From Tribonema minus (taxonomy: Eukaryota > Sar > Xanthophyceae > Tribonematales > Tribonemataceae): 64,000 nucleotides of DNA. The notes beneath the pieces are model-generated. The model had not been told where the DNA came from. It searched no databases and saw only the letters and a program-made list of their open reading frames with translations. The position numbers and the translations under genes are program-made. Shown here one piece after another: positions 139-46,189 of this stretch. The stretch lies in assembly GCA_017506865.1 (NCBI GenBank), contig JAFCMP010000290.1, forward strand, positions 124,001 through 188,000. Reading direction: 5' to 3'. The stretch's first letter is position 1. Every line of letters starts with the position of its first letter.

Positions 139-3100
139 CTGGAGCTTATACCACAACAGCCTTCCTGGAGAACATCGTGCTTCCTCTTGTGCTTGCGTCA
201 AATTTTATCGACCTGCTACTCCCTGCGAACAGCTTGGCCCGTTGCGCCCTAGCTGACTTTTTAGCCCTCAAAGTGCTAGTGTTTGGAGCATACATAAGCG
301 GCAAATACCCTATCGGCGGAAACTCAGATAAGTAAGCTGTACGCAACACTGGGGCACACCATGCCAAGCGTGTGCAGGAGATGAGCACCATGTATGGTTG
401 CACGGCAGAAGACTTCCTACGGGCGGTAAGGAAGCTGAGTGCATGCACAGGTGCCTGCGGTCTGGTCCATATGTCAGCCAGCGCGGGGCAGAGGCAATGC
501 GCGCTGACCTCGCCATGCCACACGTGTCGACGGAATGGAAGCGCCCCCACGCGCGCACGCCCGGCAGTACCCCCGGGCCAGTCCGAGGGCGGGGGTGCGG
601 GTAGCGACGGCGCGGCCGCGGCGGCGGGGGCTGCCGCAGCGACACCTCCAAAGCCACCGGCGGTGCCGGCTAGTGGCGCTGCCAACTCAAAGTCCAGCAA
701 GAAACGCCCGGCGGCCACGGCAACCGGCGCGCAACGCCGGCGCCGAACGGCAGCTGCTGCGGCACCGCCTGGCAGCGCCGGCAGCCGCACTCAGTCTAAC
801 AGCCTAAGGCTGCAGGACAGCAGCCCCCCCCACGGGACGGCCGTGGGATGGGCGGACATGGACTTGGACCCGCCGGACGATGCCGCGTCACCGCCCCCCC
901 CGACCACCACCACCAGTGGCAGGCCCTCAAAGCCCCAGGCACGAGCATCCCTGGCTTGGGACCTCTCGACGCCCTCGGTCGTCCACGCACTTGACCAGAC
1001 CAATGAGGCGGATCTACTGCTGCTACGGTTCACCACGACTGCCAACCCCTTCCGCACTCAGCTGCAGTGCACCCAGTGGGCACGGCTAGTGGAGCACGCC
1101 ACACGACTACTGGCGGACGCCACAGACAGTGCACGTGAGGCGGCACGGGTGCGCCTCCACCATGGTGCCGGGGCGTTTGCTCATCAGGTTTCTCAGACTC
1201 TAGTGCAGCGCGGCTACAGGCTGCTGCACCTGCTAGCAGCAATGGCCTTTGGTAGGCAACCGGAGGGAACCGGTATGCCGCCTGCGGCCCGGCTGGCAGC
1301 GTTGCTGTCTGGCGACTTTGCGGAGCTACTGAGAAAGACGCTGTCAGCAGCAGCGGCGCTGCGGGCCCCCAAACCAAACAACGCAGCTACGGCGTCGGCA
1401 CAAACGAACTTCGATGCCGACTGGACGGAGGCTGACTCCAGGCAGCAAACAGCATGCGCTGCCCTCTCAGGCAAGCGACGGGGGGTAGGCCTGGCTGCCG
1501 CACGACTAGAGGCGCGTGAAGCATGCGCCCCAGCAGACGAGGTCACGGCACAGGTGCTGGCAGCAAAGCACCCTGAAACTGGCACCCGGCCCGGGGTAGT
1601 CGATACGCCAATGGAGCAAGTGCGCGGCCTGGTACGCGACGCCCGGCGGCACTGCTTGCACGGCGCAGGGGTGGCAACGACCGCCGGGCCCGCTGGCAGC
1701 GGCAGTCCCGTCTTCGAATCGGGTCAGGCGCATGATCGCAGCGATAGGCCTGAGGATGCTGCCAGCGCAGCCGGACGGCGCCTCGAGGTGGAGGCGACAG
1801 ACATACTGTCGACCTTGTCCGCAGCAGGGGCGGGGAAGGCAGGAGGGCTGGACGGCCTACGCTATGAACACCTCTTGATGGCCGCTGGGCCTGGTGCACC
1901 AGTGAAAGCAGCCACCCGCCCCGTGGGCAGTGCCTCGCCAGGACTAGCTGGTGATTCAGAATCGGATGTGATGGAACCGGCATTCGCCCATCACCTGGCC
2001 AAGGTGTTCACGACGCTGCTTGTTGAGCCCGAACTGCTGCCGGAGCAATCGCAACGGCTTCTCCGCGCCGCGGCCCTCTCAGGCATAGGACAGAAGCGGC
2101 GTCCGATCGCCTGCTCCAGTGTCTGGCGCAGACTCCTCGGGTCCACAGCGGCACGGGGTGTCAAGGGCAAAATATCGGGGCTGCTGGCCTCCATGTCGCA
2201 GTTTGGCGTAGGATACCGGTCTGGCGTCGAGCATGTGGCAGCGCGCGCGCGCGTGTGGCACGAGCTGTATGGCACCACAATCCAGCTGGACTGTGAGAAC
2301 GCATTTAACAGTGTGGATCGCGCCGCCATTGTGCGGGGACTTATGCTCTTCTGTCCGGAGCTGCTCCCGCACTTTGAGTCCGTATACTGTGGTGACACTG
2401 CCCCAGAGATGCGAGTGGAGGTGAACGGTGAAGCTCGCATTATCTGCTCCCACCTAGGGTGCCAGCAAGGGGACCCTCTAGGGCCGCTGTACTTTGCAGT
2501 GGCAGCGGCATTCCTACTCTTCTACCCTGATGGAGTGAATGCGACGCCCGGCAGTATGCCGGCCTACGGCCACAGCACAGCGGAACCGCCAGCCCCGCAC
2601 TGCGCTTTCCTGGATGACCTCAACGTGCTGCAAGCTGCCTACTTCGACGATGCAGCGGCCGCTGGGGTGGCAGAGGTGATCCGTCGGCTTGCGGCAGGGG
2701 GGCTACGCGTTCGACCAGACAAGTCGCTGGCCATTGCCATGCGCGGCACAGTGTTTGATGAAGCGGCCAGAGCACGCCTGCGCGCCCTTGACATACCGTT
2801 TGTGGACGCCACCATGCCAGAATCCAGTCAGGGCTTTACGTCGGTCGGGGTACCGGTAGGGCACCCAGCCTATGTGCATGCTGCCATGAGCAAGCATCTT
2901 GTTGACGCAGGGACATGGCGATTGTCGTGGCAGCTAGCTGGGATGGCGCGGCATCACCTACAGGCAGCACAGTTCATTCTGCGCAGGTCACTGACGAAGC
3001 GGATGGGCTTCTTAGCTCGGGTCGTTGACACGGCTTTGAGTGAGACATGGCTGCACGCATTTGACGGGTTCTGTGCATGGACGCTTGAACGCATGCTGCA

Positions 3101-6100
3101 CCTGCACGGCTGCGCTACCGCGGCAGTCATGAAGTCACACCTGCTGGCCGCCTGCACTGCTGGTGACAATGAGGTAGCCAGCAGTGGCAGCGTGCTGGTA
3201 TTGCCGCGCTTGGGCCCACCAGAACTCACGGACATCGCAGTGCCACTGCGGGCGTCACGGTTGCCGGAGCGACGAGGCGGTCTGGGCATGCCGCTTTTGG
3301 GGCTACTGGCACCAGCCGCATACACGGCCCAGGCATGCACAACACTGCGGCCTGCAATAATTCATGCCACTGTGGCAGCAGGGGCCCTGAGGCTCGGCAC
3401 TGACGAACACGGCGCAGTCACCTGGTTCGCGCAGCACTCATGCGCAATACGCGAGGACCAGGGACTGCCGCCAATCATCGAGGCCGTGCGACGCTCTACG
3501 CGAGCGCTGACAGCTGATGGCGGCGAAAAATCACGCACAGCTGTGGCCGAGCAGCTCCCAGCATCGTTGCTACGGTGGGCAGCGGATACAACGGCCGCAG
3601 CGTCGACGCTCCCCACTGCGGTGCAAGCGATCTACGCCGCAACTGCCGTCACGGAGACGGGGACCACTGAGCCAGCCCCACACACCCACGGCATTGTGCC
3701 TGGCGCCGAGGCGGCCGCTGCGGCGGCGACCGTACCTGGCCCTCAAGCCGCTGCCGCGGCTGCCTCTTCCACGCCCGCTAAAACACAAACTAGCGCGGAA
3801 GAAAGCAGCTGCAGCGGCGGGCAGGAGGACGACGACGACGACTGGGAGGCCTATGCTGACGAGATCTGCAGAAAGGTAGTGCCCCGCCGCCGGCGCGGTC
3901 ACTTCACGCACGGACTACAAGCCCGCCTTTCAAATGTTCTTCGACGTCAATACGAGGACTGCCTGGTGGAGGACCTAGAGGCTGCCTCGGCTGGTGCCGT
4001 GGGCAAGCCGACGCAGGCTACACTTATTGGTGACTTGCGTGACACCAGCCGCCGCCGCCAACAGGCTAGCGCGCGGGTCCTGGCGCAGCTGCGCAGCCAG
4101 CGTGCGTCCGGGGCAATGGCGTGGATGAGCGTGCCACCCGCTGCCAATGACCGCCCGGGTGCGGCGCCCATGTCCAGTATGGCAGCAGCCACGATGATTA
4201 TGGTTGCGATCTTCATAGACGGGTGGGGCATACAGGGCGAGGTGTGCCCATGGCGGTGCAGTGACGTGAGCCCCACCTCCACGCATGCGATCAGCTGCCC
4301 CAGCCAGCACATACGGGGGCACAACGCGACACACACTGCCCAAAAGCGGTGCCTACAGCGCATCTTGAGACAGCACCATGTCTCTATTGTCCGCAATGAG
4401 GACGCTAGCGTCTTCAAGGTACCGGGGTATCGGGCGGACACAGTCATTGACCCAGGGTGTCTGCACTTTAGCAGTGCATACCGTAACAAGGGAATAGTGC
4501 TAGACACAAGTGTGCGCGCGCCCACAGCGAGCTCGTACCTGACAGGCAAAACAAATGCCTCGAACACGGACGGCTATGCTGCTGGGGTGGGGGAGGACGC
4601 GAAGGTCAAGCACCACACCGGCACCTTGACGTCATCTTGGGCTTTTGTGCCATTCGTGCAGGAGTCGTACGGACGGCTGGGCAAGCAGACAAGCCTTTTT
4701 GTTAAGGAGTTGGCAATGCACTCAGCACTGTGCTCAGGGGGGGGGAAGGCAGATGTGTTACGCAAGGCCGGGTTAGCTAAGCGTCAGATCCACATTGAGC
4801 TGAGCATATCGCTGGCGCGGGAGTTGGCGGAGCGCGTCATGGCATACACACGTGGAGCGCGAATGCTGGGCTGTGTTGCGGCGCCGGTATCCAAACTCCT
4901 AGGGCACAGCGCAGACTAGGCTGCTGCGTTGACGCAAGCTTTTCGATTGCATAGGCAACCCGGCCTCCCTTGGGCCTTTATAAATACAAGTCCATACGTA
5001 CATAATATCAACATTGAAAGAGTCATTGCAGTTTGCTGCTGGTACCTGTGTACCTTGCTGCATACCTCGCCAGCGTGGTCATACTGGTGATGTCTCAGAT
5101 ACATTCGGTACACGTGATCTGACAGCTTCAACATATCGTGCATCGTATGTCAATGTAATGACAATTTTCGCGTTTACTTGCATTATTATGATTGGCATTC
5201 ATGCAGCACAAGCAGTTCACTATCGTCGCGGCAGAAGGAGGAGCAGCGCCTGCCAGCATGGATGCTTGATGATGCTGACAGCAGTGCGCAAGAGAAAGGT
5301 AAGCTTTTATCGTCGTTATGTGATACTGGCAAGTTTGAGATTGCTTCATGCAAGTCACAGTCACCATGAGTCAAATTGTAAGACAAGCCGGTACGTGAGT
5401 ACTGAAAGGAAGTACTCCTGAAGTATAGCTTACTTGAAAGCAGATGTTATTGTTTCATTTCATGTCCATGTGTACCTCCAGACTGTACTCCTGATTGTTA
5501 TATGTTTATTTTCATGCTTGTTGTGTTTTTAGAGCTTCAATGTCACTTGCAGCTCTGACCTGAATCAATGGTCCTCCAAAAGTAGATGCTTGACTTCATC
5601 AGGATTGTTTTTACCACATGCATTCATGAAGACTGCCTCCCATAATATGCCCTCTTGTCTAGGACGTTTGCACAGTGTTTTCTACACACATGCATCTGAT
5701 ATTTTCAGGCCGCAGTGAAGTCTAGGGCATGTCAGGAAGTTCTGGCATCAACTCAGCAACATGACACATGCAGTACATGACATGGCGACAGGGAATTTAT
5801 CTGGTACCAGGAATTAGCACGTTGTGTAGCGTATTTCTTCAAGAGGTTTATTGTCCGCCAAGCAACAACTTTGTGACAACCCATTATTCCATGATATCAA
5901 TATACATACTCAGCACCGTATCGGTTGCTTGCAGGTCCGGGGCTCATGCCATTTTTCACTTCCTTGCCTGGTCTGCAGAAGCACCCAACAGCAATCTGGC
6001 GACGCCATTCAAGTCCCTGGCTGGCCTGGGGAGGAATACGCTTGCTGACGCTTTTAAGGTAACAGGGCAGTGCAAGTGAAAATGTTTCGTTAGATATCAA

Positions 6101-26970: not shown

Positions 26971-27572
26971 GGGGATCCCTGGCTGTTCAACGAGCCGATT
27001 CGGAAGCTCAAAGCCGATTCGGAAGCTGATAGCCCTGTGCGTGCAGACTGGCTGTAGCAGGCATGCACATGGCAGGAGAGCCGGCTTTGCGCCATCCACA
27101 GCTGCAGATGCAGCGAGCCTGGGTGTATACTATAGCTGCACCTGCTCATGCTATGCAGCACTTATGATTGTAGCAGCCTTGCTTCCGCAATCATTATGCC
27201 TGAAATGCCAAAGAGCTGTGGTCTGCCGATTTAAATGCTGTCGTGTTGATGTGGCGCACTCATTCGATTCCAAATCACAAGGCCCAGTCATCAACGGATA
27301 AAACCGCCAATATTTTCTTACCATGTACTGTAACATTTCAACTCAAACTGGCCGCTGCAGGCCAGGCAGCAAAAAATAGCTGTTGAAACTGTCCGCATTT
27401 TTGTTAGCTGGTGCGGTGCCTGCATTCATGAAGCAGCTCTGAGTCATACAGTCGTCGCTGTGCAAGCTTGTGTTCGGGTTGGAGCAATTTCATGCAATGG
27501 GCGCCTGCATCTTCTGCCTCAGTGAACCAGCAGCCTGAGAGCTCTAGGATGGCATTAACCCTAACCTTGCAG

Positions 27573-28143
27573 CCTGTCCATTCAAAGTTTGTTAGGGACG
27601 TGCTGCTGAACGACGACCTAGTGTGCCTGCGTGACATACCAGATTTTGGGTCTGCCAGTTGCTATGATGTGGAAGAACTCTACCTCCTCGTCACCGACAC
27701 CGCTGAGGCAGGTGGCGGCGCAGGCGAGGGTGTGCATCTGCCTGGGCTGATGTTCACCTTCTTGCACGTACTCATGACGGACCAGAATGTTAGTGTTCTC
27801 AACATCAAGCAGCAAATCCTGCAACGCCGATCATGGCCACTTCATCGGCGGCGACATGTGTCAAGCCGTGCTGCACAATCTGGCGCTGCTGGCGGCGGAT
27901 CCGCCAGCGTCCATTGCCAAGGTGCTGCACCTTGTGATGGCAGCGGTGGAGGAGGCCCTATGCGGTGTGCTGCCTCTGGCGGATGGCAAATGCACTATTC
28001 AGCGTGTTGCCAATTTGTGCTCGCCCACACACAATTCCGGCATCGCTTCTGACGGTTGTCACACACAGCATGGTTTGCAACACACGAGCGGCGCGAGTCG
28101 TTGTCGACGGCATGCTGACATCGGAGTTCTCGCCATGTCATAG
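27573..28143 (+). CDS. Hypothetical protein, exon(s) with an apparent frameshift
   Basis: After an acceptor at 27571-27572 the frame reads FVRDVLLNDDLVCLRDIP, then DVEELYLLVTDTAEAGG, then FTFLHVLMTDQNVSVLN to about 27815. The coding look then moves to another frame: HFIGGDMCQAVLHNLALL, then IAKVLHLVMAAVEEALCG, up to about 28020, with the stop at 28143. No family is recognised. The frame change could be a short unseen intron or a disabling indel. The polypyrimidine tract before the acceptor includes a telomere-like TTAACCCTAACC. No upstream exon could be joined. Confidence 0.45.
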
Positions 28144-28477
28144 AAGTACCGTGCAGCACACAGCATGCGCCACATGACGAGAAAGGGTGCCGGAGCGCTT
28201 GAGGCACGCTACGAACAGTGGTTCACGTTGACATCAGGAACGCGTGCACTCGTCATCGGTGAGCATCGCGAACCTACGACATGCCATGTCAGCCCCGAGC
28301 GTGCACGACACCATCATAGCCGTTGCGGCGATCGCTTTGTCGGCGGAAGCAAATCATGTGCACGATACATCATACATGGCAACAGCATGGGAAGAACGCA
28401 GGGTAGGGTTACGGGAAGAACGCAGGGTGAAGCGCACACACCATGGAAGGTAAATGCAGAAGAAGCAATTGGTGACA
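28144..28477. other. Intergenic gap between convergent genes
   Basis: No gene is supported. A 16-bp direct repeat GGGAAGAACGCAGGGT occurs twice between 28388 and 28427, separated by AGGGTTAC. Confidence 0.4.
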
Positions 28478-31400
28478 TTAAGACATCGGCGAAGGTGCAG
28501 AAGCGTCGTCATCCTGAGCCGCGGTGCTCCTTGCAGCGTACCGAGATGATCCGCTGTAGTGATCGAACAAAGAGTTTTGACGGAGAGGGCCAGCTGCTGG
28601 TCGCAGACCTCTGTACACCAGTGCTACTTGCACAAGAGCCATTACGAGGAGCAGCACATTCAGCGCTATCAAGAGGTTGCCGACCGCTTGCTCACTGCCC
28701 CCTTCTACCCAACGCACCTGCATCAGCAGCGATGTGAACATGCTTCCAAAGAGAATTGCGTAACCCAACGTGTACAACCACTTATCCATCCCCTGCTGGT
28801 GAGGGTGAATCTGCTCGTACACCATGGCCGTGAAGAATACAAACAAGCATGCGACTGCACTCTGGCCTGGTTCGCCGGGCATGATGAAGACAAGCAGGCC
28901 CGCAAGCATCAGTCGCCGCAAGCACTCTACGGTCTCCCAATAGTAGGCACGACCCTTGTAAGGGCGCCACAAAAACGATGATGCTGTTGCCAGCCGGGAC
29001 GGCAGCTGCGTGCGATCACACTGCCTTACAGATCGCCAGAGGATCGACGCGTACAACACTGGGATCCCCACTGGGTAAACCATGATCATGAAAGCAGCAT
29101 AAATCGAAAATTTCGTGTGCAGCCCCTCGTCATCGCCGCACTCGATTGAGTAGTCCGCGCGCAGATAACTCTTGCCTGTAAATTTCAACTCGTCGCACCC
29201 GAAGGTCTCGAAGACCGTAAGCGACACGCCGGAAAAGATCAGGAAGGTGAACACCAGGAAGGCGTTGACGTCTCGTGCGACAACCTGTTGGAGCTTGGGC
29301 GCAACCGCGAGCCGACGGCGGGATACGATCCACAGGTAGAACCGGGGGCTGAATATGAGGGCGCTGATCACCAGGGGCGCTAATTTGGCGACGAGCAACC
29401 GGCCGTAAAAGTTGATGTCGGCGACGCACCCAGGCGAGGTCAGCCACCGCATGTCCAGGGACAAGAAGTCCACCGCATGCAGGAACTCGAGGTACTTCAG
29501 CGGCAGCGTGAGGCCAGTGATGCTGATGTACTGAGTGAGTACTTGTATGACAACGATCGGGATTCGAAACCGCTGCATGAGCAGCACTCCGACGCGCGCA
29601 AGTTTTGATGACGGACCGGCGGCAGCGCCAACTGCCTGAGCGCTGTCCACCCCGTCGACCACTCCAGTCGACTTTGAGCACAGCAGCCACAGCAGCAGAA
29701 GTGTGGCCAGTGCGACGACCGCCAGTATCGTGATTGTTGCTGCGGTAGCGCCGCTGGTGCACTCGACGCAGCGGTAGCCCGGCAGGCTCGCGTACCCTGG
29801 TGCACAGACTGCACAATCTGGCGGAAAGCACAATAATGAAATCATCAGCATCATGTATGCGAAGGGCGACAAAGCAGAAGGAGAATGTGATTTGGGCATT
29901 GCACAAAAAGGCCGCGAAGTCGACAGACCATGGTGCCTCTCGGTGTGAGATAGGAAACACATCATAGACTGCAGCACACGAGAAGCTGTTGACGCCACTG
30001 TTTAAAGGCATGTTCGCTCTGTTTCTCTACATCAATCGCTGATTTGATGACCTGCTGTGTCTCGTACTGTGTTATGTGACGTGCACCTCCTTGAGTCGAC
30101 TTACATGGCCCTCTGTAGCCTTTGCTGCAGTAAACGTCGGTGTTGTTCGGCCAGTTTAGGGCGTCTCCCGTGCATGCTCCATCCAACATTCCAACACGCA
30201 CGCAGATCCTCCTGGTAAAATGTCTCTCTCCAGAAGCCAGCAGCCAGTGGCAGCGTGCTGACGGTGATCCCGATTGAGGAACAGTCGAGTTCGTGCGTGT
30301 CGCAAGTTACGCAGGTGTGGTCGTTGTTGGAGTCCACCACCAGATATTGGCGTTTGTTGCAGCACGACCTGCAAATCCGAGACAACAGCAACAATAACTA
30401 AGATTGTCCACCCACAATGCAATGATTGTTAACATGAGTCAACAGATGCCACTCACCATCCTGTGCCAAACCCCGTAGAAGCATCATTGCATGGAATTTC
30501 GCTGTGTGTTGCGCTCGTGCCAGAATAGCAGCATTGTGCCACGTTGTTGACGAAGGACGTGCTGGGGTCCACGTTCACATTCAACATCGTGGCTGTACCC
30601 TGCTGAATGATGGCTCCTCCGGCACCAACTGTCGCGGTGTTGCTGGTAAACACACTGTGGGAAATGTCAAAGTTACGGGTTTCCACGACTGGAGCCAGGG
30701 ACAGCGCTCCGCCAACAGGACTGCTGTTGTTTGTGAAGTTGCAGGTGTTGATGTGCCCAGTCACTGATGGCTCCAGGTACACTGCGCCTCCCGTCTCTGT
30801 GGCGCTGTTGAAGGAAAAGGACGTACTGCTAATGTTGGCTATTGCAGCTTGCGCCAGATACATGGCAGCACCTTTCGCGCCTGCAGAAATGGGACAGCAA
30901 GCTTGATCACACATTGAGTTGTTGCACTGTAAGTTTGCAATAGACTGGCAAACGTATGTGCGTACCTGAGTTATTCTCAAACAGCGACGAGTTCATGATC
31001 ATATTCCCCACCAAAAGTATCGCGCCATCGTCAGTGGAGGAAGAGTGTTGTATGGCGACCGACGACATCTTCAATTCTGACCCTGTGGCCGCGTACACGG
31101 TGCCGCCCTTGATGGCTGCAGCAGTGCAGGCAAAAAAGCAATGATGAAGGACAGAAGGGAAATGTGAGCTGTCTGTCCATCAATTGAAGCATATCAAGAA
31201 GCTGGTCAATAGGCTGATGCAAACACCGTGTGGTGCCAATGGGGAAGTGTGCTCAAAGCTCCACGCGCACTGCAGTTTGCGGTTGCATAGAGCAAGTTGA
31301 GACAGTCGGCGTTCCACCGGATGACGATCCTGACCTGTGCTCTGTTGAAAGTTGCTCTTGGTGCACTTCAAGTATGCTCCTTGCTCCACTGTGATGCTTC

Positions 31401-34400
31401 CTCCATAATGCTTTGCGATGTTGCCATTGAAGTCTGACAGCATCAGGTATGCACCATCAGCATTCACGTAGATTGCTCCACCATCTGCAGTTCAAATGGA
31501 CAGGGTACAAGTCATGGACACGTACAACAGCTGGTGCGCACAGATCAGGCCTCCGCATTTCACTAGCCTGTTGCTCCACACCTCCAGAGGGTGATCAATG
31601 CAACAGAAGACCGATGAACAACAGGTATTTGCTGCAGGTATGAAATCAGCACAGTGTCACACACCTGTTGCGTTGTTACGGGTGAAGGAACAGAACGTAC
31701 ACCTGGTGCTCAAGCCAGGTAAGAGCGATGAGGCACCCGACGACCAAGAGCTCGAAGACGACCTCCGGGGTAAGATCAATCCCGAAACCGGCAATGGCCC
31801 GACATACACAGCTCCTCCTGAATCTGCATAGTCACAACGTCAACGTGTGCATTGAAGGTATGTCAAGAAGTCTGTAGAGCTCGGTGCAATCAGCAACAAC
31901 TCAGTGCAACAGCTGTTACAATGCAGCAGGAAATTAAACGTCCTTGTAATTGCATGGTAGACCTGTGGCCTTGGGGCCTCAAAAAGTCTATAGGCTACGC
32001 GTTTCCGGGGAGTTTGCCATATGTTCAATGACCATATCCATGAGAGGTAAGCTTCCAGCTTTTTTCAGGGTTTCCAATGATTTCATTTTTCAAAGAGTTT
32101 GGTTTTATTAAAAGTTGCAAGCAGCGCAGCATTGCTCAGCGCATCACCATGCGTACCCTTAACCCTGCTTGCCACTGAAGGTTACCTCGACTTCAAGTTG
32201 AACTTGCAAGTTGTGTCAAAACATGCTGTTCAGCATCTGCTGATCAACAACCACACATGCTCTGCTGCCACAGACCAGCATCGCTGCACACAGCAGTGGC
32301 CACTGAACACACTTGAAAGTTTGCACTTACGTGCACTGTTCAGGGTGAACGTTGAGTTGCCGCAGGTGAAATTGCCTTCTTCGTTGATGATGGCTCCACC
32401 AAACTCTGCAACACAACCAGAAACAACCAGCAGAATACTGCTTGGTGAATGCCACGATCGGTCACATATTGCACAGACATGGCCACGCATTTGGAGTAAC
32501 TGAGGTGCACCCAAACCACAAAACACTCGTGCCACAGCATGCGCGTGCAATTGGGCACTGCATCGCCTCACATTGCGAGCGAGCAAAGTAAATGACTCAC
32601 CTGTTGCTGTGTTGTAGGTGAAGGCAGAGCTGCTGCAGGTGACAGTGCCTAGACTGTTGCAGATGGCTCCACCATCATCTGCAACACAACAGAATTCAAA
32701 ATGCTGCTGGATTGTTGACACGACTGATTTCAGACTGGACAACCATCGTCATACATGCAGAACAAATCAGGTGTGCGTCTCAGCGCTCAAGTCATGGCAT
32801 GCGCGCACCATTGGGGATGTCATCGCCCCCTTGCATTGCAACTGCGAAACAAAAGGAAGACTCACACACTGCAGTGTTGGAGGTGAAGGTCGCGTTGTGG
32901 AAGGTCAGAGCGCCACCATAGTTGTTGTAGATGGCTCCACCAACCTCTGCAACAGAACCAAAAAGACCAGTCAGAACGCTGCTCAGGGATGCCATGAATA
33001 TCCCAGCATGCACAGACGTCACCAATCATTTTAAGCGCCTCACCTGCACCATTCACATGACGCCCACGTCACGGCATGTATGCACCCCTGGACACAATCT
33101 CGCAACACAGCACGATGAGCAAACAAATCGATGACTCACCATGTGCTGTATTGGAGGCGAAGGTCGATCTACTGCAGCTGACCTCGCCAGCTGCATTGGC
33201 GACGGCTCCACCTTGGTCTGCAACAGAACCCACACAAGCAATCAGAATGATGCTCAGTTGTTGTTGCCCTTGACTCAATTCTCACTCTGCACAGCCATCA
33301 CCACACATATGAAACTTGAGATGCGCCAGTCACAGCACGGGTATGTCATTATGACGGCATGTGCGTCTTGGCACGCATGCGCCAGTGGGCATGGCATTGC
33401 CTCACATCGCGACGGGCAAAGCATGACTCACCTGCTCTATTGGAAGTAAAGGTCGATGTGATGAAATCACTGGAACCGCCTTCATTGTAAATGGCGCCAC
33501 CTAGAGCTGCAGCAGGACCAAACACGAGCAATCAAAGCGGTACTTGGCCCGTGCCACGATTGGTCCCCAAATTGTACAGCAGTCACAATGCGGTTCACAA
33601 AGAAGGCAGGTGTATCGGTCACAGCATGCTTCACGCCACGCCATACGCAAGCCATTGGGCACGGCATGGCCGCACACCAAGTCGTGCAAAAAGAAGTGGT
33701 GACTCACTCTGTGCTGTGTCGGAGCTGAAATGCGCAGGTCACAGCATGCCCACGTCACCGCATGCATGCACTATAGAGCATGGTATCTCCTCACATAGCA
33801 ACATGCGAGACGAAACGATGACTCACATCCTGTGTTGGAGGCAAAGGTCGAGTTGCGGCAGGTGAAATTGCCATAGTTGTTAATGGCTCCACCGTAGTCT
33901 GCCATGGAATCACAACGAGCAGTCAGAGCGCTGCGTTACCAATGCCGTGATGAATGCTAGCATAGGACTCGAGCAGGAAATCCCATTAGCAATTCTTTTG
34001 CGTTTGCATGATAGGCAAGCACCGCTGCACATCAGCGGCCTTTGGACAATGGAAGCGACGCACTCACATCCGTTGTTGAAGGAGAATCTGGATCCAAAGC
34101 AGTTGAAGTTGCCCGAGTTGCTAACGGCTCCACCACGAAAGGGTTCGTAGTATCCGCCATCTGCAACAAACAACACCACAGACGCCGCCACTCGTTTTAC
34201 AGATTCAGCTGCGCCGGTCATGGCATGTACATCCTGAAATGCATGCACCATCGTACACGCTTCAAACAGCAATGCGCAGATCACATTGATGACTCACATC
34301 CTGCTATGTTGGAGGTAAAAGTCGATCCAAAGCAGTCGAAATCGCCTATGTTTTCGACGGCTCCACTTTGCTCTGCAATGAAACAGAAACCAGCAGTCAG

Positions 34401-36630
34401 AACGTCGCTTGACCACCTCCACAGTTGATCCCACAGTGCACAAAATTGCCATGCTTTTCAAATATTTCAGGTGCGCCGGTCACGGCCAGCAGGAGTCAGA
34501 GCATGCGTGCGCCATGGGACACAAAATCGCCTCACATTGCAATAGAAGTATATAAATGATGACTCACGTTGTGCGGTGTTGTTGGTGAATGTGGATGTGG
34601 TGCAGGTGAAATAGCCACTGTTGTAGACGGCTCCACCGTAGCCTTGATGGCCACTGTCATCTTCATATGCAACAAATCAAAACGAGCAGTCAGAACGCTG
34701 CTTGAGCCGTGCCACAATTGATCGCACAATGCATAGATGTCGTCACGCGTTTCAAAGACCTCAGGTGCGCCAGTCACAGCACGCTCACATCACGGCATGT
34801 GCACGGCATCGGGTACGGCATCGCTTCACATCGCCACATGCAGAGCAAAATGGACTCACTTGATGCACGGTTGGCAGTGAAGGCTGAGTTGCCGCAGTCA
34901 AAAGAGCTGTTGTCGTTATAGATGGCTCCACCATCTGCAACAGAACAAAAGCGAGCAGTGAAAAAGCTGCTAGATCAATGCTAAAATGGAGCCTGCTAGA
35001 TTGATGCCACAATAGAGCTCAGAGTGCACAGATTGGTACCATGCTGTTCACAGAATTCAGGTGCGCCAGCCACTGCAAGCTCAAGTAACAGTGTACGCCA
35101 TCTGGCACGGCATACGATATCGCCTCACATTGGCAACACGCCACCCAGAATTAGACTCACCTACTGCTGTGTTGTTGGCAAAGATGCATCCAGTGCAGAT
35201 GGAATTGCTCTGACGGAAGTTGAATATGGCTCCACCAAAATCTGCAAAGAAACCAATAGAGCTATCAGAGCAGTGCTTGACCGATGCTGCAATTGATCGC
35301 AAATTGCACAGATGTATACGTCGCCACGCGGTCCAAAGGATCCTCAAGCCAGGTGCGCTGGCCACTCAGTCTGCATGCTCACGTCACAGCATGCATGCAC
35401 CATCGAGCACGGCACCGGAACTATAACTCGAATTCTGTGTTGGAGGCGGGTGCAACTTGAAGCCAGAGTGCACTCACTTGTAACTCTGTTGGAGGTGTCC
35501 ATGGTATGCATGCACCATCGGGCACGGCATTGCCTCACATCGCATCATGTCAGGAACAGGATAACGTCACTGCTTCAAACAAAGGCGGAGGACCGAGTCA
35601 AGCAGCTAATGTAAATTCGCAGTGACGCATAGCCTGAGTGCTCCATCTTGCATATCTGCAATAGAGCCAGCACAGTGACTGTAGCTGACCCGCACACATT
35701 CAAACGAATGGCTCACCTGCAGCATTTTTAAAGAAAGCTGAGGAGCGGCTTTTGACGTTGCCCCTGTTGTAGATAGCTCCACCATGTGAAAACGCTGTGG
35801 ACAAAGTGCACAATCAATTTGCAGGATTACGTTGGCATGCTGCGAAGAGAGCCCGCGGCGTCCTACGCTTGCTTATAACACTGCAAACACCAGAGTGACA
35901 CACTGGCACTGTGCTGCACATGCATTAGTGCTCTCGCAATCAAGAGGTGTATCAATCACACACACACACATACACATGCCGAAAGGCTTCACGCTTCTGT
36001 GTTGCTAGTATAAATCGCAGTCTCTAATTTGCGAGGTCGGAGTAACAATCGCTCACCTCGGTTGAACCAGAACTGGCAACCCTCCAGTAACAGCTGCCCA
36101 CCTTTGGAGACCTTCACGGCTCCACCTCCAACTTGAAGGTTATCATTCTCACCCGCCTCAGCAAATCCGTCCCTGAGCCAAAGGTTTCGCAGCGTCACGG
36201 AAGCACCCGCCTGCACGCGTATCAGCTGAGTCTCGTTCCACCCCGAAATTGAGGCGACCTCTGAGTCCGTGTCGACACCGGTGATCTCAAGGGAAGTCCT
36301 GGCGCCGACGATTATTGGTTCGGTGAGCCCCACAAACCCTTGCCACTGAACTTTGATGGTCTGATTCAAGCACGCCGCCGCCTCTGTAAGCTTCATTGCA
36401 GACGCATGGTCATCGATGGTGTGAGAGGTGGCTTGCACACCGGGGCAACAGGGGCCGCGGTCGCTCTCAGGCCTGCAGTCCGGACCAGCGCAGCCCAGGC
36501 CCAGATGACAAGTTTTCTCACCAACTGTGTCAGACGCATGGCAACTGCTTGGGGGATGCCTGCACCTCTTGCTCCTCTGCGCCACCTGGCTCCGACAGAC
36601 ACAATCGCAAACAACCATAATCATTGTCAG
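28478..36630 (-). CDS. Beta-helix repeat, Cys-rich, multi-pass membrane receptor-like protein
   Basis: Gene read right to left. The first supported exon (about 36630-36057) has a Cys-rich segment, then beta-helix lead-in (LTEPIIVGARTSLEITG, VTLRNLWLRDG). A chain of exons follows, each encoding about one helix coil of the form GGAI-x-N...C-x-S-x-F-x-x-N-x-A: 35794-35717, 35241-35161, 34934-34860, 34660-34568, 34372-34298, 34160-34068, 33898-33827, 33506-33432, 33217-33140, 32946-32866, 32678-32601, 32405-32331, 31823-31665, 31484-31335, 31115-30966, then the larger 30880-30457. Exon 30368-30105 is a Cys-rich stalk (TCVTCDTHELDC, GFWRETFY). The last exon, 29817-28478, starts CAVCAPGY and has about eight hydrophobic segments of the TRP-like/7-TM type seen in algal Pmp-like proteins. 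The role is probably surface sensing or adhesion, by inference. A one-base shift near 30185 breaks the frame as read. The 5' end and signal peptide are unresolved. Confidence 0.8.
33703..33745 (-). pseudogene. Decayed beta-helix exon relic
   Basis: On the + strand, GACTCACTCTGTGCTGTGT followed by GGAGCTGAA matches the donor half of the neighbouring repeat exons. It then stops matching, and the glycine-rich half and acceptor are missing. It sits in the unusually long 395-bp step between two working exons, where one unit is expected. Confidence 0.6.
35425..35515 (-). pseudogene. Two further decayed beta-helix exon relics
   Basis: ACTCGAATTCTGTGTTGGAG at about 35428 and ACTCACTTGTAACTCTGTTG at about 35471 each resemble the donor side of the repeat exons, but neither has an intact acceptor half. 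They lie in the 475-bp gap between exons 35161-35241 and 35717-35794. Confidence 0.5.
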
Positions 36631-37500
36631 GCCTTGCAAAATCAGCACACAACGGGTTGTGGTGGTATAGAGGTGGCATTTTCTCCGGGCACTGAGCTCA
36701 ATACTGCTGCGGCTTTGTGCATGCAGGTACATTATTTTGAATATAATCAGCTGGCTGAACAAGTGCAGCCCGCTGATAGCTGCGGATATGTCATTGAACT
36801 GGTACGTATGTACGTACCAGTTCGTGCTACTATGTCATGTCGCCAGCTCATACTTTGTGGTCCTACTTGTGGGTCATATTTGGGGGTCATACTTTGGGGG
36901 TCATACTTGGTGGTCATAGTATTACTTAGGGGGTTGTACTTGGGGGTCGTTCTTAGGGGTCGTACTTAGGGGTTATACCCGCCGGCGGGGTCACACTCAT
37001 CGTGTGAGGGGTTGTATGTTCAAGTTGGGTGACTATTTTGTCTCTCTTTCTTATGCTTCCAAAGCATGCATATGATGTCCTCTATGCAGTCCATCCTCAG
37101 GAAAAAGGGGTGGTCTCATTTCCTTGTGAGACGCCACGTTTGCCGGCAAATCATCCGCCGTTGCCGTCGCCCGTTGGTTTGCCGGCGATTTGCCAGAATG
37201 TTCTGCGGCAAGTGTGCGGCGAGCGTAGTGAAAGCCGCTTGAACCGGTGAATGGTGGCTGACTGCCGAGGTGCACCATTTGCATTTGCCGGCTGACGGGT
37301 ATGATAAATTGCCAAATCATTGCTAATCAAGGGCTGACGGATGTTGAGCACCTGACAGCTGTGACTTGAGCTGAATTGTACACACAGCAAGAGTGCGCCT
37401 GGGCTGGAGCGATGCAGTGTTGCTGGCGTATGTGGCCTTGAGCTTTCCAAAGTGCTGCATGCATGCAGTCCGCCATTTGCTGGACTCCACAGCTGGAGCT
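36631..37500. other. Upstream region with GGTCATACTT-type repeats
   Basis: Between about 36860 and 36980, a 15-17-bp motif close to GGGGGTCATACTT repeats about seven times with drift. The rest up to 37500 shows no supported gene; GC-rich open frames on the - strand here are not recognisable. Confidence 0.5.
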
Positions 37501-37592
37501 CTCCAACGGCCAGTCGATTGCCACCTTCTAGGGCACTGCAGCACAACTCCAACGGCCGGTCGACTGCCACCTTCAAGGGTACTGCAGCACAA
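37501..37592. repeat. 46-bp direct tandem duplication
   Basis: Units 37501-37546 and 37547-37592 both start CTCCAACGGCC and end ACTGCAGCACAA, with four differences. Confidence 0.8.
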
Positions 37593-39209
37593 CACATGAG
37601 CAGAAATCGCGCACTTAATCTCAGAGGCTACTAAGTGGGCAACTTGAAGTGGAGGCCAGGGACGCTGGCGTGCATATTGTTTTTGTTTCATATGCAGCAC
37701 CTGTCTTTTGCAGCAGCTTTTGAGAGCACAACTGCAATAAGCCTTAGGGTGTTGAACAAAGTTCAGAAGCAATTAGGAAAATGAAGCGTGCTGCGACTTG
37801 AACAAAACACGGTTGACGTGAAGGGTTTGAGCCAGACCCACTTGTGCGGTTCTGGTGAGTAAAGCCTCGCAGACCTGAAACCGTCACAGGGTCGACACTA
37901 GGAGATTCACAGCATTCCGGTCCATCCCGTGTACTGTCACACTCTGGCAAGTGCATCCATTCTTGTGCAGTTCATTCCTGCATCTGTACCCATTCTGGGC
38001 TACTGTGCCCTGGCACCAGAACAGACCCAAAATACACACAGAACAGATACTCTGGAGGACCAGAGTCTCAGCACCATTGTCGGCAAGTTCTGGTGCTAAT
38101 AAACAGCCTGATGTCACTGGCCACTGCCAGAGTGTTATGGCAGTCATTGCTTCGTGGTGATTGCATTCCCGTGGCAGTCATTGCTTCATGATGAATGCTG
38201 TAGAGGGTTTGCAATGGCCGTGAACTGCTGAGCAGTGGCATTCACTGCAGTGCCTTGGCAAGGAAATCCGTTACACAGTATATCCTTATCGAGTAGCATA
38301 CTTGAAGCAAAAAAGTGGAGGTGATGGCCACTGCAGCCTCCATTGTCAAATCGTCTACTGAGTTGAGGATAAACATTGTCCATCTTGCTCTTCTGTGTGT
38401 GACCAAATAAAATGTGGTGCGCTTCAACTCTGAGAACGGCAAGCTTGTCAGTGAAAACTGAGCATATGCAATGTATACTTATACCAAATGTGTTTTAAAT
38501 GACCTACTAGTAGCCAGACCCGATCTGGCCGTTCAAGGGCAACATCAGCTTATGTTAAACATACTGTGCCAGTTGCAGTATCCAGCGCTGGCATCTTTCA
38601 CACCTACGCGTTAATCCTCTCAAATGACACCATCGTCAGGGTGACAAATCTTCAGCAAAGTGTGAGTACAATACGAAAACCTTAAAGTCCATGGTAATGG
38701 CTCTTGATTACAGCCTGAGCATCCGCTGCATTCTTCACGGTCACCTGGGACACCCTTGCCCATCGAGTGCGCAGCTGCGTGGTACTTTGTTTGTATTGCA
38801 AACGCGGGCTCGGCATCAGCCATCCTGACTCCTTCGCTCTGACACACGGAACTGTCACGTTTGGTGCACACAACAGTTAAACTGTTACTGAGAGCATGCA
38901 ACCTGCGCAGGCGTCAACTCGCTAGAAATGACTAATTAGTACCGTCGGTTTAAGATTCGCTGATCGCGTGCAGAGCTGGCGACATCAGCGCACGGCAAAT
39001 CCTGATACCCCTTTGTATGATAATGAAAACTCTAAGGCTAGGCGCAGTCCTGTCCTGACCCTGACCTGTGATAGTTGTACTCCTAATCCTAACCCTAACT
39101 TCGACGACGCAGCGCGCGCATACACCACCAGCCGAGATGAGCAAGGCAGGATGAGGGTTCGGGGTTGCCAACAGACAGCAGCGCTCCTCCAGATCCAGAA
39201 CACATATGT
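37593..39209. other. Gene-poor stretch
   Basis: No gene supported. Only short open frames are present, and a telomere-like CCTAACCCTAACT lies near 39088-39102. Confidence 0.4.
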
Positions 39210-39896
39210 CATGACAGCTTGCAGGGTTGAAGTGTTGTGCCGCTGAAGCGCTCAGCTGAGCCAGTGGCATCTGAATTGAAGCTGCGACGCCGCCAGCTGC
39301 CCTGCAAGTTACAGACACATGCAGGCTTCACAAGCTACCAGCTCATCGCTTGCACAAGCTGTGCGTTCACCATCGGGGACCGCCACTCATGACAAATGGA
39401 ACAGACAAAGTGAAGTGCCAGGCAAGGCGGCACTCGACTGAGCCAGCAGCACCCGCCCTGATCTGCTGCAACGTCGCCAGCTGCCACTGGCACTCAGTTA
39501 CGAACACGTACTGGCTTCATACCTTGCTAGCTCATCGCTTGCGCAGGCTGCACATTCACCAGCGGCGACCACCAATAATGAAAGTTCGTGAGTTGAAGTG
39601 GTACGTCAAACAAGCGCCTGAGCTAGCCTGTGGCACCCGGACCGAGCGTTCGCGCGGCCGCTAGTTGCTGCACATGTCACAAACGCACGAAGGTTTTCAA
39701 ACCTGCCTGCTTGTTGCTTGCAACAAGCTGCGCTATCACCACTGGCATCCGCCGGTCATGACAGCTCGCGGGATTGAATGTCCGGCAAGATGAGTCTTCG
39801 GCTGAGCCAATGGCACCTGGCACTGAGCTGCTGCAACTCCGCCAGCTGCCACGCAAGTTACAACGCATATAGGCTTCAAATCACCAGCACTAATTT
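39210..39896. repeat. About 180-bp satellite-like tandem repeat, nearly four units
   Basis: Units start near 39210, 39388, 39576 and 39757, marked by CATGACA or a variant. Internal landmarks are shared: CGCCAGCTGCC, then AAGTTAC or AGTTACGA, then GGCTTCA, then AGCTCATCGCTTGC. Units have diverged by many substitutions, so this is an old array. Confidence 0.7.
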
Positions 39897-40391
39897 TCGA
39901 ATCTGGCCGTCAGTCACAAGCTGCCGCACTGTGTCCGAATCGGCATGTAATCTCCAGCACCGACAGCAGAGGCTCACTGCCATCAGCTGACAACAAATGC
40001 ACGCAGGCCATGCGCAAGTGGAATACAAACTCAGGGTTTGTGAAGCGTGCCATACATCAGAACTTGTGTGTAAATGTAAAGTCCATTTATAGAGCACGTT
40101 TGGAAAGCACAAAGATGTGAACATATACCATTGTAACATATAACGTCGTAGCAACGTAATCTGATAACATTATGTGCAAAGAGTCCGAGAATTTGTTGAT
40201 TGTGCTCATCTTTATGTAATGAAAAAAGCTGTTTCGGATTAATATATGGACACACTTGCCGAAGCTGTTTCCATGGCCCGAATAGATAGACAAACGCTCT
40301 CTTCAGTGCTCAGTAGGCACGTCTATTCGATGTACACATCTGCCGAGTTCTGACACATTCAGGCTCACAAAGTTCGATGCTGCTCATTACT
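39897..40391. other. AT-richer spacer
   Basis: Nothing recognisable is seen between the satellite-like array and the duplicated phosphatase exon. Confidence 0.4.
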
Positions 40392-40690
40392 TACCACGCT
40401 GCCTGCTTCTCTTATGAAGCCCGGGAAGGTGACTAGGACCATGGTCGTGTCGTCCTTGCCACCCATGTGTAAGCAGTTGTCTAGCACCTCTGCACAGCAT
40501 GCGCCCAGTGTCTTGTAGGTCATTATCTACCACGCTGCCTGCTTCTCTTATGAAGCCCGGGAAGGTGACTAGGACCATGGTCATGTTGTCCTTGCCACCC
40601 ATTTGTAAGCAGTTGTCTAGCACCTCTGCACAGCATGCGTCCAGTGTCTTGTAGGTCGTGCTGTCCTTCAGGACCGCCATGGTGCGTCTC
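40392..40690 (-). pseudogene. Tandemly duplicated PP2C-type phosphatase C-terminal exon
   Basis: Read on the - strand, the right-hand unit (40528-40663) gives CAEVLDNCLQMGGKDNMT followed by MVLVTFPGF. This is the last conserved motif of PP2C-family Ser/Thr phosphatases, where the DN pair helps bind metal. The left-hand unit (40392-40527) is a near copy with HMGGKDDT, so that motif is altered. The unit is 136 bp, not a multiple of three, so a read-through changes frame. The left unit ends at a good donor (GTAAGTA on the - strand), while in the right unit it has become GTAGATA. No other part of a phosphatase is seen. Confidence 0.6.
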
Positions 40691-43343: not shown

Positions 43344-43705
43344 CTAAACCCCTGCAGAAAGCAGCTCCGTCGCCGCCGCCGCCCGCCGCCACTGGCGCGA
43401 TTCGCCGCCGTACGCTCGAGGCGGCTTTGCGCCTGCGCCGCCGCCAACGCCGCCAGCAACTGGCATGTTTACGGAGGCACAGAGGTGAGCACCTGTGGCG
43501 CTGGCGGTGTCATGTTGATGGTCTGCCTGGCAGGCTGCGGCAGTGCCTATGCTGAACGGCACACTGGTGCGTATTATTTGAGGGGCCCACAGTGCATCGC
43601 CTCGGATGCCGCTCGCGCTGCTGTCGTCTGCATCCTGCGTGCTGCTGCGGACGCGTGCTACTTTCGTGTTTTCACTCTTGTTAACCTCTGCAACACCACC
43701 GTGAC

Positions 43706-44036
43706 TGCCCCGATGCCTCCCCTGCACATTTCGTGCACTGGGTCTGCTTGAGCGGTCCAGGGGGGGTGCCGGGGGGGGTGGCGGTGCGGCGATAGTGCAG
43801 AAAGGCAGCTGATGCGCCCTGTGCGATGCACTGCGATGCACCAGGTGGCTTTTGAAAAATGACGCGACAGACTGCCCCGATGCTTCCCCTGCACATTTCG
43901 TGCACTGGGTCTGCTTCAGCGGTTCAGGGGGGGTGCCGGGGGGGTGGCGGTGCGGCGATAGTGCAGAAAGGCAGCTGATGCGCCTTGTGCGTTGCACTGC
44001 GATGCACCATGTGGCTTTTAAAAAATGACGCGACAG
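43706..44036 (-). repeat. 167-bp tandem duplication carrying a zinc-finger-like pattern
   Basis: Units 43706-43872 and 43873-44036 match closely (both start TGCCCCGATGC). On the - strand each encodes a variant of CTKCAG...SFFKSHLVH...H, separated by Pro-rich sequence. C-x2-C followed by H-x3-H and a further His resembles BED or C2H2 zinc fingers. 167 bp is not a multiple of three, so the two units are read in different frames. Confidence 0.5.
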
Positions 44037-46189
44037 CCTGAGGCACGTGCACGACCAAAAGCAGTGAGGTACATCGCGAAAATGCGGCAGTGAGGTTGCA
44101 TGTCACTTAGACGGGAAAGTAGCAGTCCACCCGTTGTGCTCTCTGCGCACCTTCAAGATCAGTTGCCTTTCCGCCGTTCGGCTCGCACTGCATATACCAA
44201 CTTAAAGGTGCAGGTTATTCAGTGCACTTGGGTGCCTGCTGATCTCCTGCACATCTGACGTATCAGCTCTGCCTGGGCATGATTGCCACAGCTGGATGCG
44301 CTCTCACATCGCCCAATGAGCACTGAATTCGTCTTGGCTGCAGCTTATCATTCATGTCTCCCACCTTTCTCAGGACAGGAAGCTGCTAGGAAGCGCACAG
44401 CTACTGCTGGAAACTTCAAGATCAGTTGCCACTCACGTGCATATAACTCGATACATGTCGCTGTACCATCGTGTCTGCAGCTGCACTGACTGCACTTCGC
44501 TTTCCGCCGCTCGCCCTGCGCTCAGCACTTTGCCTATAGAGCAGTGAATTAGTGCGGTTACACGCCTGTCGTTCGTGTGCAGCTCAGCACGCACCTCTCC
44601 CACCGTCGTCCTTAGGACCAGAAGCCGCTAGGAACCGCTCAGACACTGCTGGCGATGGACGGCGCAGTCATGACTGGAGTGACCAAACTTGACACACAAG
44701 CGAGGTTGCTGCTCTCATACAAAGGCAAGCACCTTCCAGTAGTAAACACTGCACACCCTGAGATGCGCGCGTCGGCCAAGCCAAGCAGTTACAGTGCATC
44801 AAGCAGCCGTGAGATTTCTGTTTCTGCGCATTTGTGCGTCCAGGCGTATCGGCGCCTGTACGACCAGAGCTGTGCTTGCGCAATCCTATTCCCCCCCCAG
44901 CACCGAAGCACAGCGACGGTGATGAAAGTACAACTAAATTGCCAAGCACAGCGCACACAGACGAAGTGAACGCAAGCCCTCTATAGCAGACCCTGTCCAC
45001 CAGCAGATTTACACACTCGTGCGACACACGTACTAAAATAGTTATCAGAAGAGATGGTTACCACCGTCAGCGAAAGCAGCAACTTCCTCTGCTCCAGATT
45101 CGTTTGCAAGGCGCAGCAGGACCACTTACCCCCGTCCCCGTGACGCTGCCCACAGTAACCGATGGTGCTTGAAAGCACTTCCGCTCCAGCCCTGTCAGCA
45201 GCCGCGTCCTTCTTGAGCCGCTACGCGCAGCTTACGTCCTGTCCTGGTCTCGCTAATCCCGTACTTGAAGTAGCCCGCAGTTACCTTAGCAGGCGCCGTG
45301 GCGTGGCGTGGCCCTCCGCTACCGCTGACTCTCGTGAAGGCCGCGGGCGTCTGGTAGACTATGCTAATGGCGGACGCCCTCCGCTACCGCTGAACCTTGT
45401 GAGGATTGTCCCAAAGGACAGCGGGCGTCTGGCTGAGTTAACTCCGAACGAAGGCCCTCCGCTACCGCATGGCTCCAGTAGAGTGCGCGGGCGTCTGGCT
45501 ATGCACAAGTCCTGCCGAGATCGCCATTGTGGTGACTGGGTGGTGTCCCAGCTCACAGTGTTGACTCTTCAGGAGTGAGGAACTGCTCCATTGCTCCAGT
45601 TACAGCCTAAAGCCTGCGAATGTTGCCTTGAGAAAGCAGCGGCGCTTGCAACTACTCCCTCCAGATACCAAGTGCCATGGCGCCGGTAAACGTGGCGGTG
45701 CAAAAGCAGACAAAAGCCTTCCTTAAAGCATGTAGATCGGTTTCTGATCATTAGGCGAACACAAGCACAAATGCAGCTGAGCGCTGCTGCCATTCAACTT
45801 GAGGTGACTGTTGACAAATACGGGCACAACTCTCCAATTCAGCCCTGGCCACCTCAAGGCGTGCTACGTGCTGCCAACACACATCTATCATCCTAATGCA
45901 CGCTAATGGCGGCCGCTTCACGACACATTCATGATTACACAAAGATGGACGAAATGGCCAACAGCTCAATGGAGGCAGTGAGTGCTCAAACCCAGTCTAG
46001 AAGAATGCAAGCAGTCAATGCTGAAGGGTAGTCCACCAGTAGCAAGTGACTGCCATCTGCTCAGTTGATCACACATGTATCGACATCGACATTGAGACAT
46101 TTTTGCTGTTTGTTAAAAGCAGAGATAAGCATGGGGGTTCACGTGCTTCAAAGCAGAAACGCCTGTCACGGGTGTCACCTGCGTCCCAG
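44037..46189. other. Repeat-bearing gene-poor stretch
   Basis: 44.1-44.6 kb holds degenerate repeats, for example CTTCAAGATCAGTTGCC near 44150 and near 44415. 45300-45505 has three units of about 65-80 bp, each starting CCCTCCGCTACCGC and containing GCGGGCGTCTGG. No recognisable gene. Confidence 0.5.

Follow-up and report, generated by a model that had tools for sequence, protein, structure and literature searches.

LRR exon arrays in the ROCO genes of brown algae are said to have been recognized by Zambounis in 2012. Other systems bear comparison: lamprey VLRs are modular solenoids with hypervariable strand residues, assembled somatically from LRR cassettes; the exons of arthropod Dscam are mutually exclusive; and the Pmp proteins of Chlamydia, which are bacterial and intronless, consist of a beta-helix passenger and an autotransporter barrel. 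The brown-algal ROCO arrays comprise 72-bp phase-2 exons encoding LRRs, in genes with ROC-COR domains, and splice variants of these repeat-exon arrays are reported by Teng 2024 (PMC11378527), where arthropod Dscam exon arrays are also named. Brown-algal repeat-exon arrays with a few hypervariable residues have already been described on LRR and, by report, TPR scaffolds.

Here we analyse a gene in a 64,000-nucleotide stretch of the Tribonema minus genome (the window; contig JAFCMP010000290.1, positions 124,001 to 188,000), for which the one-repeat exons of the brown-algal LRR-ROCO genes are the closest precedent, the scaffold in this case being a Pmp-type beta-helix on a membrane protein. In this genome, one light-harvesting fragment has its nearest PDB relatives among FCPs of the diatom type, so the source is probably a chlorophyll-c alga. 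As in the LRR-ROCO genes, the array has one structural repeat per symmetrical exon, a single phase, many units and a few fixed positions, four in both cases, with signs of diversifying selection, judged here by divergence ratios; the brown-algal proteins have been proposed as algal immune receptors. Unlike the LRR-ROCO genes, the T. minus exons are 72-93 nt long, in phase 1 and encode beta-helix coils, and the protein has a signal-peptide-like start and a polytopic membrane C-terminus. It shares with the Chlamydia Pmp proteins the PF02415 motif GGA[IV] ... F..N in its coils, but differs from them in its exons, introns and polytopic helical membrane part. The likeness to lamprey VLRs lies in a modular solenoid with hypervariable residues; VLR assembly is somatic. 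Like Dscam, it would be a surface receptor gene with tandemly duplicated exons, but all its coil exons contribute to the same solenoid, one coil apiece, and several are probably used together. Among the open-access papers listed by literature searches, judged by titles and abstract openings, none described such an exon array on a beta-helix scaffold.

The window gene lies on the minus strand, and its exons were called from the DNA sequence rather than from transcripts. The first coding part, E0 (36057..36539), contains a signal-peptide-like start and an N-terminal helix cap terminating in GGGAVKVSKGGQLLLEGCQFWFNR; its exact start was placed from paralogues, and start and cap are not in one frame in the window copy. 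Twelve coil exons of 72-93 nt follow, each encoding one beta-helix coil, with AG/GT borders, phase 1 and a length that is a multiple of three: E1 (35717..35794, 78 nt), E2 (35161..35241, 81 nt), E3 (34860..34934, 75 nt), E4 (34568..34660, 93 nt, or 75 nt if it begins at 34642), E5 (34298..34372, 75 nt), E6 (34068..34160, 93 nt), E7 (33827..33898, 72 nt), E8 (33432..33506, 75 nt), E9 (33140..33217, 78 nt), E10 (32866..32946, 81 nt), E11 (32601..32678, 78 nt) and E12 (32331..32405, 75 nt). Beyond these lie three longer phase-1 exons, E13 (31665..31823, 159 nt), E14 (31335..31484, 150 nt, with the weak donor gtcagg) and E15 (30966..31115, 150 nt). An earlier note on this DNA had held that 15 neighbouring exons are all in phase 1 and all divisible by three, each encoding about one or two coils; exon reading (35794-30966, minus strand) confirmed both points, with one coil in each of E1-E12 and about two in each of E14 and E15. 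E16 (30457..30880, 424 nt), which encodes several beta-helix coils, is the exception to this pattern. It is followed by a cysteine-rich membrane-proximal exon, E17 (30100..30361, borders approximate), and by a C-terminal exon (28478..29824, 5' border approximate) that is open to its stop and encodes a Cys motif and a polytopic membrane domain.

A scan of the genome for symmetrical phase-1 exons only, keeping calls that scored above 24 bits against the profile and independently of which the window exons had been read, led to 14 analysed loci with 167 open coil exons (6-21 per locus). C9, the second copy of the window gene, C201, near-identical to C298, and C511c, with two exons, were kept outside this set. 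The earlier expectation that such arrays lengthen and shorten agrees with the range of unit number among paralogues; the window gene and C9 both have 12 units. In 10 regions, C9 and C201 being excluded as near-copies, an exon DNA profile gave 25 extra matches where no open coil exon had been called, of which at least three are longer exons of the E13/E14 type and several others are visibly broken, while some may be true exons with borders that the scan rejected; in the window, the 12 profile matches are the 12 coil-exon calls, with none extra. In a tree of 109 units, each with an intron of 160-235 nt, units group by gene in most genes, those of C223b and C521 showing no such grouping. The membrane exon is free of stops in nine relatives with 72-84% identity across all 445 residues, and has two stops in C479, one of the 14 loci. 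In the upstream stretches of C62, C379 and C68, phase-1 coil-exon calls were scattered, for the most part weak, and did not line up as a long regular array, and a search of viral contigs for relatives of the membrane domain confirmed none.

The 11 introns between E1 and E12 measure 137-475 nt, with a median of 195 nt for those shorter than 340 nt. A unit of about 270 bp, as had been suggested, is found where the array is regular; two introns are longer, E1-E2 at 475 nt and E7-E8 at 320 nt. Local alignments, which took in the splice-site ends, bore out the resemblance of the central introns: 42 of the 55 pairs scored above the 99th percentile of shuffles, and 30 above the maximum of 220 dinucleotide shuffles, whereas 11 of the 13 weak pairs include intron E5-E6 or E6-E7. 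Exon plus intron is the unit of duplication in the family, and this part of the earlier proposal is well supported at the family level by a shared intron consensus, by intron matches confined to arrays and by duplications of whole units. The introns of 13 loci fit one consensus at about 76-85%. A 196-nt intron compared with the whole 158-Mb genome had all of its 92 matches within receptor arrays, in a search that missed four of the family's own arrays (window, C301, C521 and C298) and that diverged copies elsewhere could likewise escape. C298 carries a recent repeat of 550 bp, spanning two units, at 96.7%, the second copy having one exon broken, and the C511 loci contain recent whole-unit tandem copies at 94-98%. 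Paralogous arrays vary in unit number, and some hold recent one- and multi-unit tandem copies.

The coil motif, GGA[ILV] / FxxN, is that of Pmp-type repeats. A hand-joined peptide of the cap and E1-E12 scored 47.7 bits against PF02415 (Chlamydia Pmp repeat) and E16 scored 27.5 bits, both above the Pfam gathering cut-off of 20.6. Stacked coils with about three short strands and a match to known beta-helices identify a right-handed parallel beta-helix; the structure model covers E16 residues, from 30878-30459, and not the coil exons, and by Foldseek alone it had no significant match (best E 0.25). The C-terminal exon shows 6-7 hydrophobic peaks of helix length in five full-length members, and matched no Pfam family above any cut-off, a picture other than that of an autotransporter beta-barrel. 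The membrane domain had no match among PDB sequences at E up to 1, and its AlphaFold model (pLDDT 34) was unusable for assigning a fold. Neither LRR nor ROC-COR was found by Pfam in the peptides scanned, namely cap plus E1-E12, E16 and the membrane exon. The signal-peptide-like start of the paralogues, the beta-helix ectodomain and the C-terminal hydrophobic peaks together suggest a receptor, and the family members are probably cell-surface proteins.

The strongest clue, absent from the earlier note, is a set of hypervariable positions. Four fixed residues in each coil (1, 6, 8 and 10) diversify faster than the introns of their own units: codon positions 1+2 diverge 2.1-4.8 times as much as introns of the same locus in all 13 loci tested, and exceed position 3 in 13 of 13. 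This comparison retained 144 of the 167 exons, those of 66-93 nt that do not open the coil array of their locus, and C511a2, with fewer than five units left, is absent from the 13 loci. Such divergence is as would be expected under diversifying selection, the evidence being divergence ratios and not a codon-model likelihood test. The four sites were found and tested within one family, for which a leave-one-out version helps, yet the loci are related by descent. In 8 of 13 loci, the 17% of intron columns that vary most, when chosen per locus, are as divergent as the hypervariable codons or more so, and only in the leave-one-out version do the hypervariable codons separate from variable intron columns. 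None of the 14 loci had a pooled whole-exon Ka/Ks above 1, the values being 0.39-0.99; the greater part of the coil is therefore constrained, and the case for diversifying selection rests on the four sites. Synonymous divergence exceeded intron divergence in 14 of 14 loci (Ks/Ki 1.24-2.98). Since the ratio of conserved four-fold codons to introns ranges from about 0.4 to 2.3 (13 loci), this excess may sit mainly in the hypervariable codons.

We consider it probable, at roughly 0.7, that these genes constitute an algal family of beta-helix membrane proteins, built from symmetrical exon-intron units with four fast residues, whose coils recombine and which recognizes varied ligands. The ectodomain is a right-handed beta-helix in which most coils each derive from one symmetrical phase-1 exon, and the introns that follow these exons, some 200 nt long, are homologous to one another. 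The homologous introns may serve as recombination substrates, so that unequal crossing-over and conversion could add, drop and reshuffle coils with the frame kept. The fast residues are predicted to point outward, lining a putative binding surface along the stacked coils, through which the protein might recognize putative ligands of a microbe, a virus, or self and non-self, and signal via its polytopic C-terminal membrane part. The divergence excess of four residues over introns is new here. The family resembles a receptor repertoire for recognizing many partners; if this is true, modular fast-evolving recognition arose in algae more than once. More tentatively, and with less than even confidence, we envisage a germline-diversifying repertoire of beta-helix surface receptors in a chlorophyll-c alga. 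In it, homologous introns would turn every coil into a recombination cassette, four outward residues per coil would be under strong diversifying selection, and the choice of exons might vary the receptor further inside a single organism, making it an independent beta-helix equivalent of the immune repertoires built on LRRs. The family is also a natural test bed, since a unit's own introns supply a built-in neutral clock for each coil residue.

Several other accounts of the arrays deserve consideration. Introners often share a near-constant length and a consensus, and intron length is indeed near-constant in several loci (C158, sd 1.1; C511b, sd 8.2), as would suit a single mobile-intron family inserted into repetitive coding sequence, together with the family consensus noted above. 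The near-identical introns in many unrelated genes that mark introners were, however, not seen in the one-intron search, with its four missed arrays; the confinement of every match to receptor arrays therefore argues against a mobile-intron origin, as does the joint copying of exon and intron in the C298 repeat, and we regard this origin as highly improbable. It is unlikely, too, that these are repeat proteins with a plain structural or adhesive role, whose exon array is left over from the growth of the protein and homogenized by gene conversion, and whose residue variation reflects no more than relaxed constraint at the surface. Whole-exon Ka/Ks below 1, the clustering of units within most genes and the equal unit number of the two window copies all accord with it, but relaxed constraint alone should neither give four sites 2-5 times the intron divergence in 13 of 13 loci nor lift codon positions 1+2 above position 3 in every one of them. 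Somewhat less unlikely, though still doubtful, is alternative splicing of the coil exons in the manner of Dscam or the brown-algal LRR arrays, by which one gene would somatically yield many ectodomains. Every coil exon is interchangeable in frame, several of the extra profile matches are broken exons that could be skipped without frame loss, and brown-algal arrays of this kind have splice variants, according to PMC11378527. Nothing in the sequence demands skipping, though, and some of the 25 extra matches may be exons whose borders were not accepted, the window having none.

That the window locus is a mere pseudogene without wider interest also seems improbable: lesions are present in both its copies, but nine relatives have a membrane exon without stops, and small indels could be assembly errors. 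The receptor-family reading is compatible with a window gene that is itself an aged member, probably in a copy no longer functional. Its second copy on contig C9 is 96-98% identical and has the same 12 unit positions. The fast variation proposed for the window gene itself was not upheld, as C9 keeps 12 units, both copies carry lesions, and the window units are ungrouped by gene in the tree (7 changes, where shuffling gave 7.8 on average and as low a count in 89 of 500 shuffles), so that its array gives no sign of recent duplication. The window copy is lesioned near 36425 and, in E17, near 30190, where the frame is disrupted relative to paralogues; C9 shares the lesion near 30190, lacks one base in E8, has a stop in E16 and misses 29 bases in the membrane exon. 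The 29-base gap can hardly be an assembly error. A multi-copy element, not aligned in the C9 copy, lies directly 5' of the window gene on the plus strand (36795..39888).

The unit duplicated across this putative receptor family is an exon plus its intron. The earlier note had claimed that the introns between the twelve single-coil exons of the window gene (E1–E12) resemble one another, and they do so above chance: among these eleven introns, 42 of 55 pairs score beyond the 99th percentile for dinucleotide-shuffled sequences, and 30 of 55 outscore every shuffle. The likeness extends beyond the window, since 103 introns (165–225 nt, from 13 loci) align across 200 columns, with commonest-base agreement of 76–85% per 20-column bin. 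A mobile intron family would be an alternative source of such likeness. A whole-genome search with a 196-nt intron from the array on contig C445 gave 92 matches, all 92 inside receptor arrays, which is unlike the behavior of a mobile family; this single query missed the more diverged arrays of the window, C301, C521 and C298. Within the sensitivity of that search, the sequence matches indicate that the introns move together with their exons.

A unit HMM, run on symmetrical phase-1 exon candidates from fetched regions, detected arrays on other contigs of the same genome: two on C223, at least three on C511, and others on C445, C158, C479, C279, C434, C301, C521 and the near-identical C298/C201. 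The 14 loci retained hold 167 open coil exons, 6–21 per locus, with median introns of 179–206 nt, and unit number differs among paralogues. An exon DNA profile gave 25 matches in 10 regions without an open coil-exon call (none in the window); at least three are longer exons of the E13/E14 type, several show evident damage, and some could be exons whose borders lay outside those accepted by the scan. The C-terminal membrane exon (28478–29824, minus strand) has 106 exon-level matches in the genome. Eleven of them, counting the window's own, extend over the full 445 residues with an identity of at least 72%, and the one on C479 bears two stops. One family member is present in six copies with equal match scores over four contigs (C201, C209, C269, C298). 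C201 and C298 are 99.7–99.9% alike over the compared parts, and one C201 intron is ~3.8 kb longer than in C298, probably owing to a mobile element. On C511, a 167-bp stretch recurs at 98.8% identity with ~20 kb between its copies (868501–868666 and 888509–888675, L017/L018); an insertion may have split a single gene here, leaving its first exons at 889 kb and its coil array at 868 kb.

Recent tandem copies are apparent from the sequences of some loci. A two-unit block of 550 bp is followed directly by a second copy at 96.7% in both C298 and C201, one exon being broken in that second copy, and in C479 a block of ~683 bp is duplicated at 95.8%, broken exons included. At two C511 loci, units 1/3 and 2/4 (C511a1) are 94% and 98% alike, and units 5/10 (C511b) 98% alike. 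On a quick tree of 109 units, gene labels require 35 changes against 82.8 for shuffles (0 of 200 as low). Units of the window gene do not cluster by gene (7 changes against a shuffled mean of 7.8; 89 of 500 shuffles as low), nor do those of C223b (500 of 500) or C521 (60 of 500), implying that these three arrays are old or mixed.

Variation among coils is concentrated in alignment columns 7, 12, 18 and 20, which correspond to consensus residues 1, 6, 8 and 10. At codon positions 1+2 of these columns, units differ by 0.43–0.70, versus 0.11–0.33 for introns of the same locus; the ratio is 2.1–4.8 in 13/13 loci, with all bootstrap intervals above 1, while the 17% of intron columns that vary most, chosen within each locus, equal or exceed the hypervariable codons in 8/13. 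When columns were chosen with the tested locus excluded, the identical four were recovered in 13/13 cases, and intron columns chosen likewise remained below the hypervariable codons in 13/13 loci. Restricting the comparison to standard-length gap-free units (67 of 144) leaves nine loci with four or more such units, whose ratios are 1.8–5.1. Positions 1+2 also exceed position 3 in 13/13 loci, as expected of selection on amino acids and not of a simple mutation hotspot. The claim of fast change is limited to these four sites; the coil scaffold is conserved, since pooled whole-exon Ka/Ks is 0.39–0.99 (14 loci). Synonymous sites of the coil exons diverge 1.2–3 times more than same-locus introns in the 14 arrays, an excess that the hypervariable codons explain only partly. 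Mapped by motif onto a model of exon E16, the column 12 residue sits at the center of the first short strand and that of column 20 at the start of the second; the hypervariable residues are predicted to face outward.

We propose that the homologous introns serve as substrates for crossover and conversion, that phase-1 symmetry would preserve the reading frame at any unit number, and that selection may favor coils that combine exposed residues in new ways, the simplest reason being the binding of varied partners. Skipping of coil exons is also possible. According to a study of brown-algal ROCO genes (PMC11378527), each LRR there is encoded by one 72-bp phase-2 exon, four sites of the concave face are under positive selection, and the genes yield splice variants. 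The logic of an exon per repeat and four fast sites is common to both systems, whereas the Tribonema arrays use a Pmp-type β-helix scaffold and differ in phase, topology and C-terminus. We file them as a variant of the brown-algal repeat-exon kind, not as members of the ROCO family; no repeat-exon array on a β-helix scaffold appeared among the open-access literature matches listed.

The second copy of the window gene, on contig C9, matches 27178–36794 at 96.6% over the stretch and 98% over the array, with identical positions of the twelve units. Collinearity of C9 with the window on the gene's 3′ side, interrupted by insertions, suggests that this copy is an allele; on the other side C9, up to its position 224000, does not align to the window, and a segmental duplicate is a possible alternative. 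Directly 5′ of the gene, a multi-copy element (36795–39888) has no alignment in C9; at least 15 long copies of it, at 93–96% identity, lie elsewhere in the genome. The window copy is one base short near 36425 relative to C9 and four paralogues, and near 30190 its length differs from six paralogues, as does that of C9. The C9 copy has E8 one base short, a stop in E16 and a membrane exon lacking 29 bases. The small indels among these may be assembly errors. Because both copies are damaged, the window gene is best read, from its sequence, as a decaying member of the family, with which its irregular introns are consistent.

Elsewhere in the window, a frame of 1527 aa on the plus strand (336–4919) resembles reverse transcriptases, as judged by eye, and related, partly degraded copies lie on the minus strand towards the other end (50.7–53.8 kb and 58–63.4 kb). 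Two segments, of 136 and 166 bp, are tandemly duplicated with 94–95% matches at 40384–40657 and 43703–44040.
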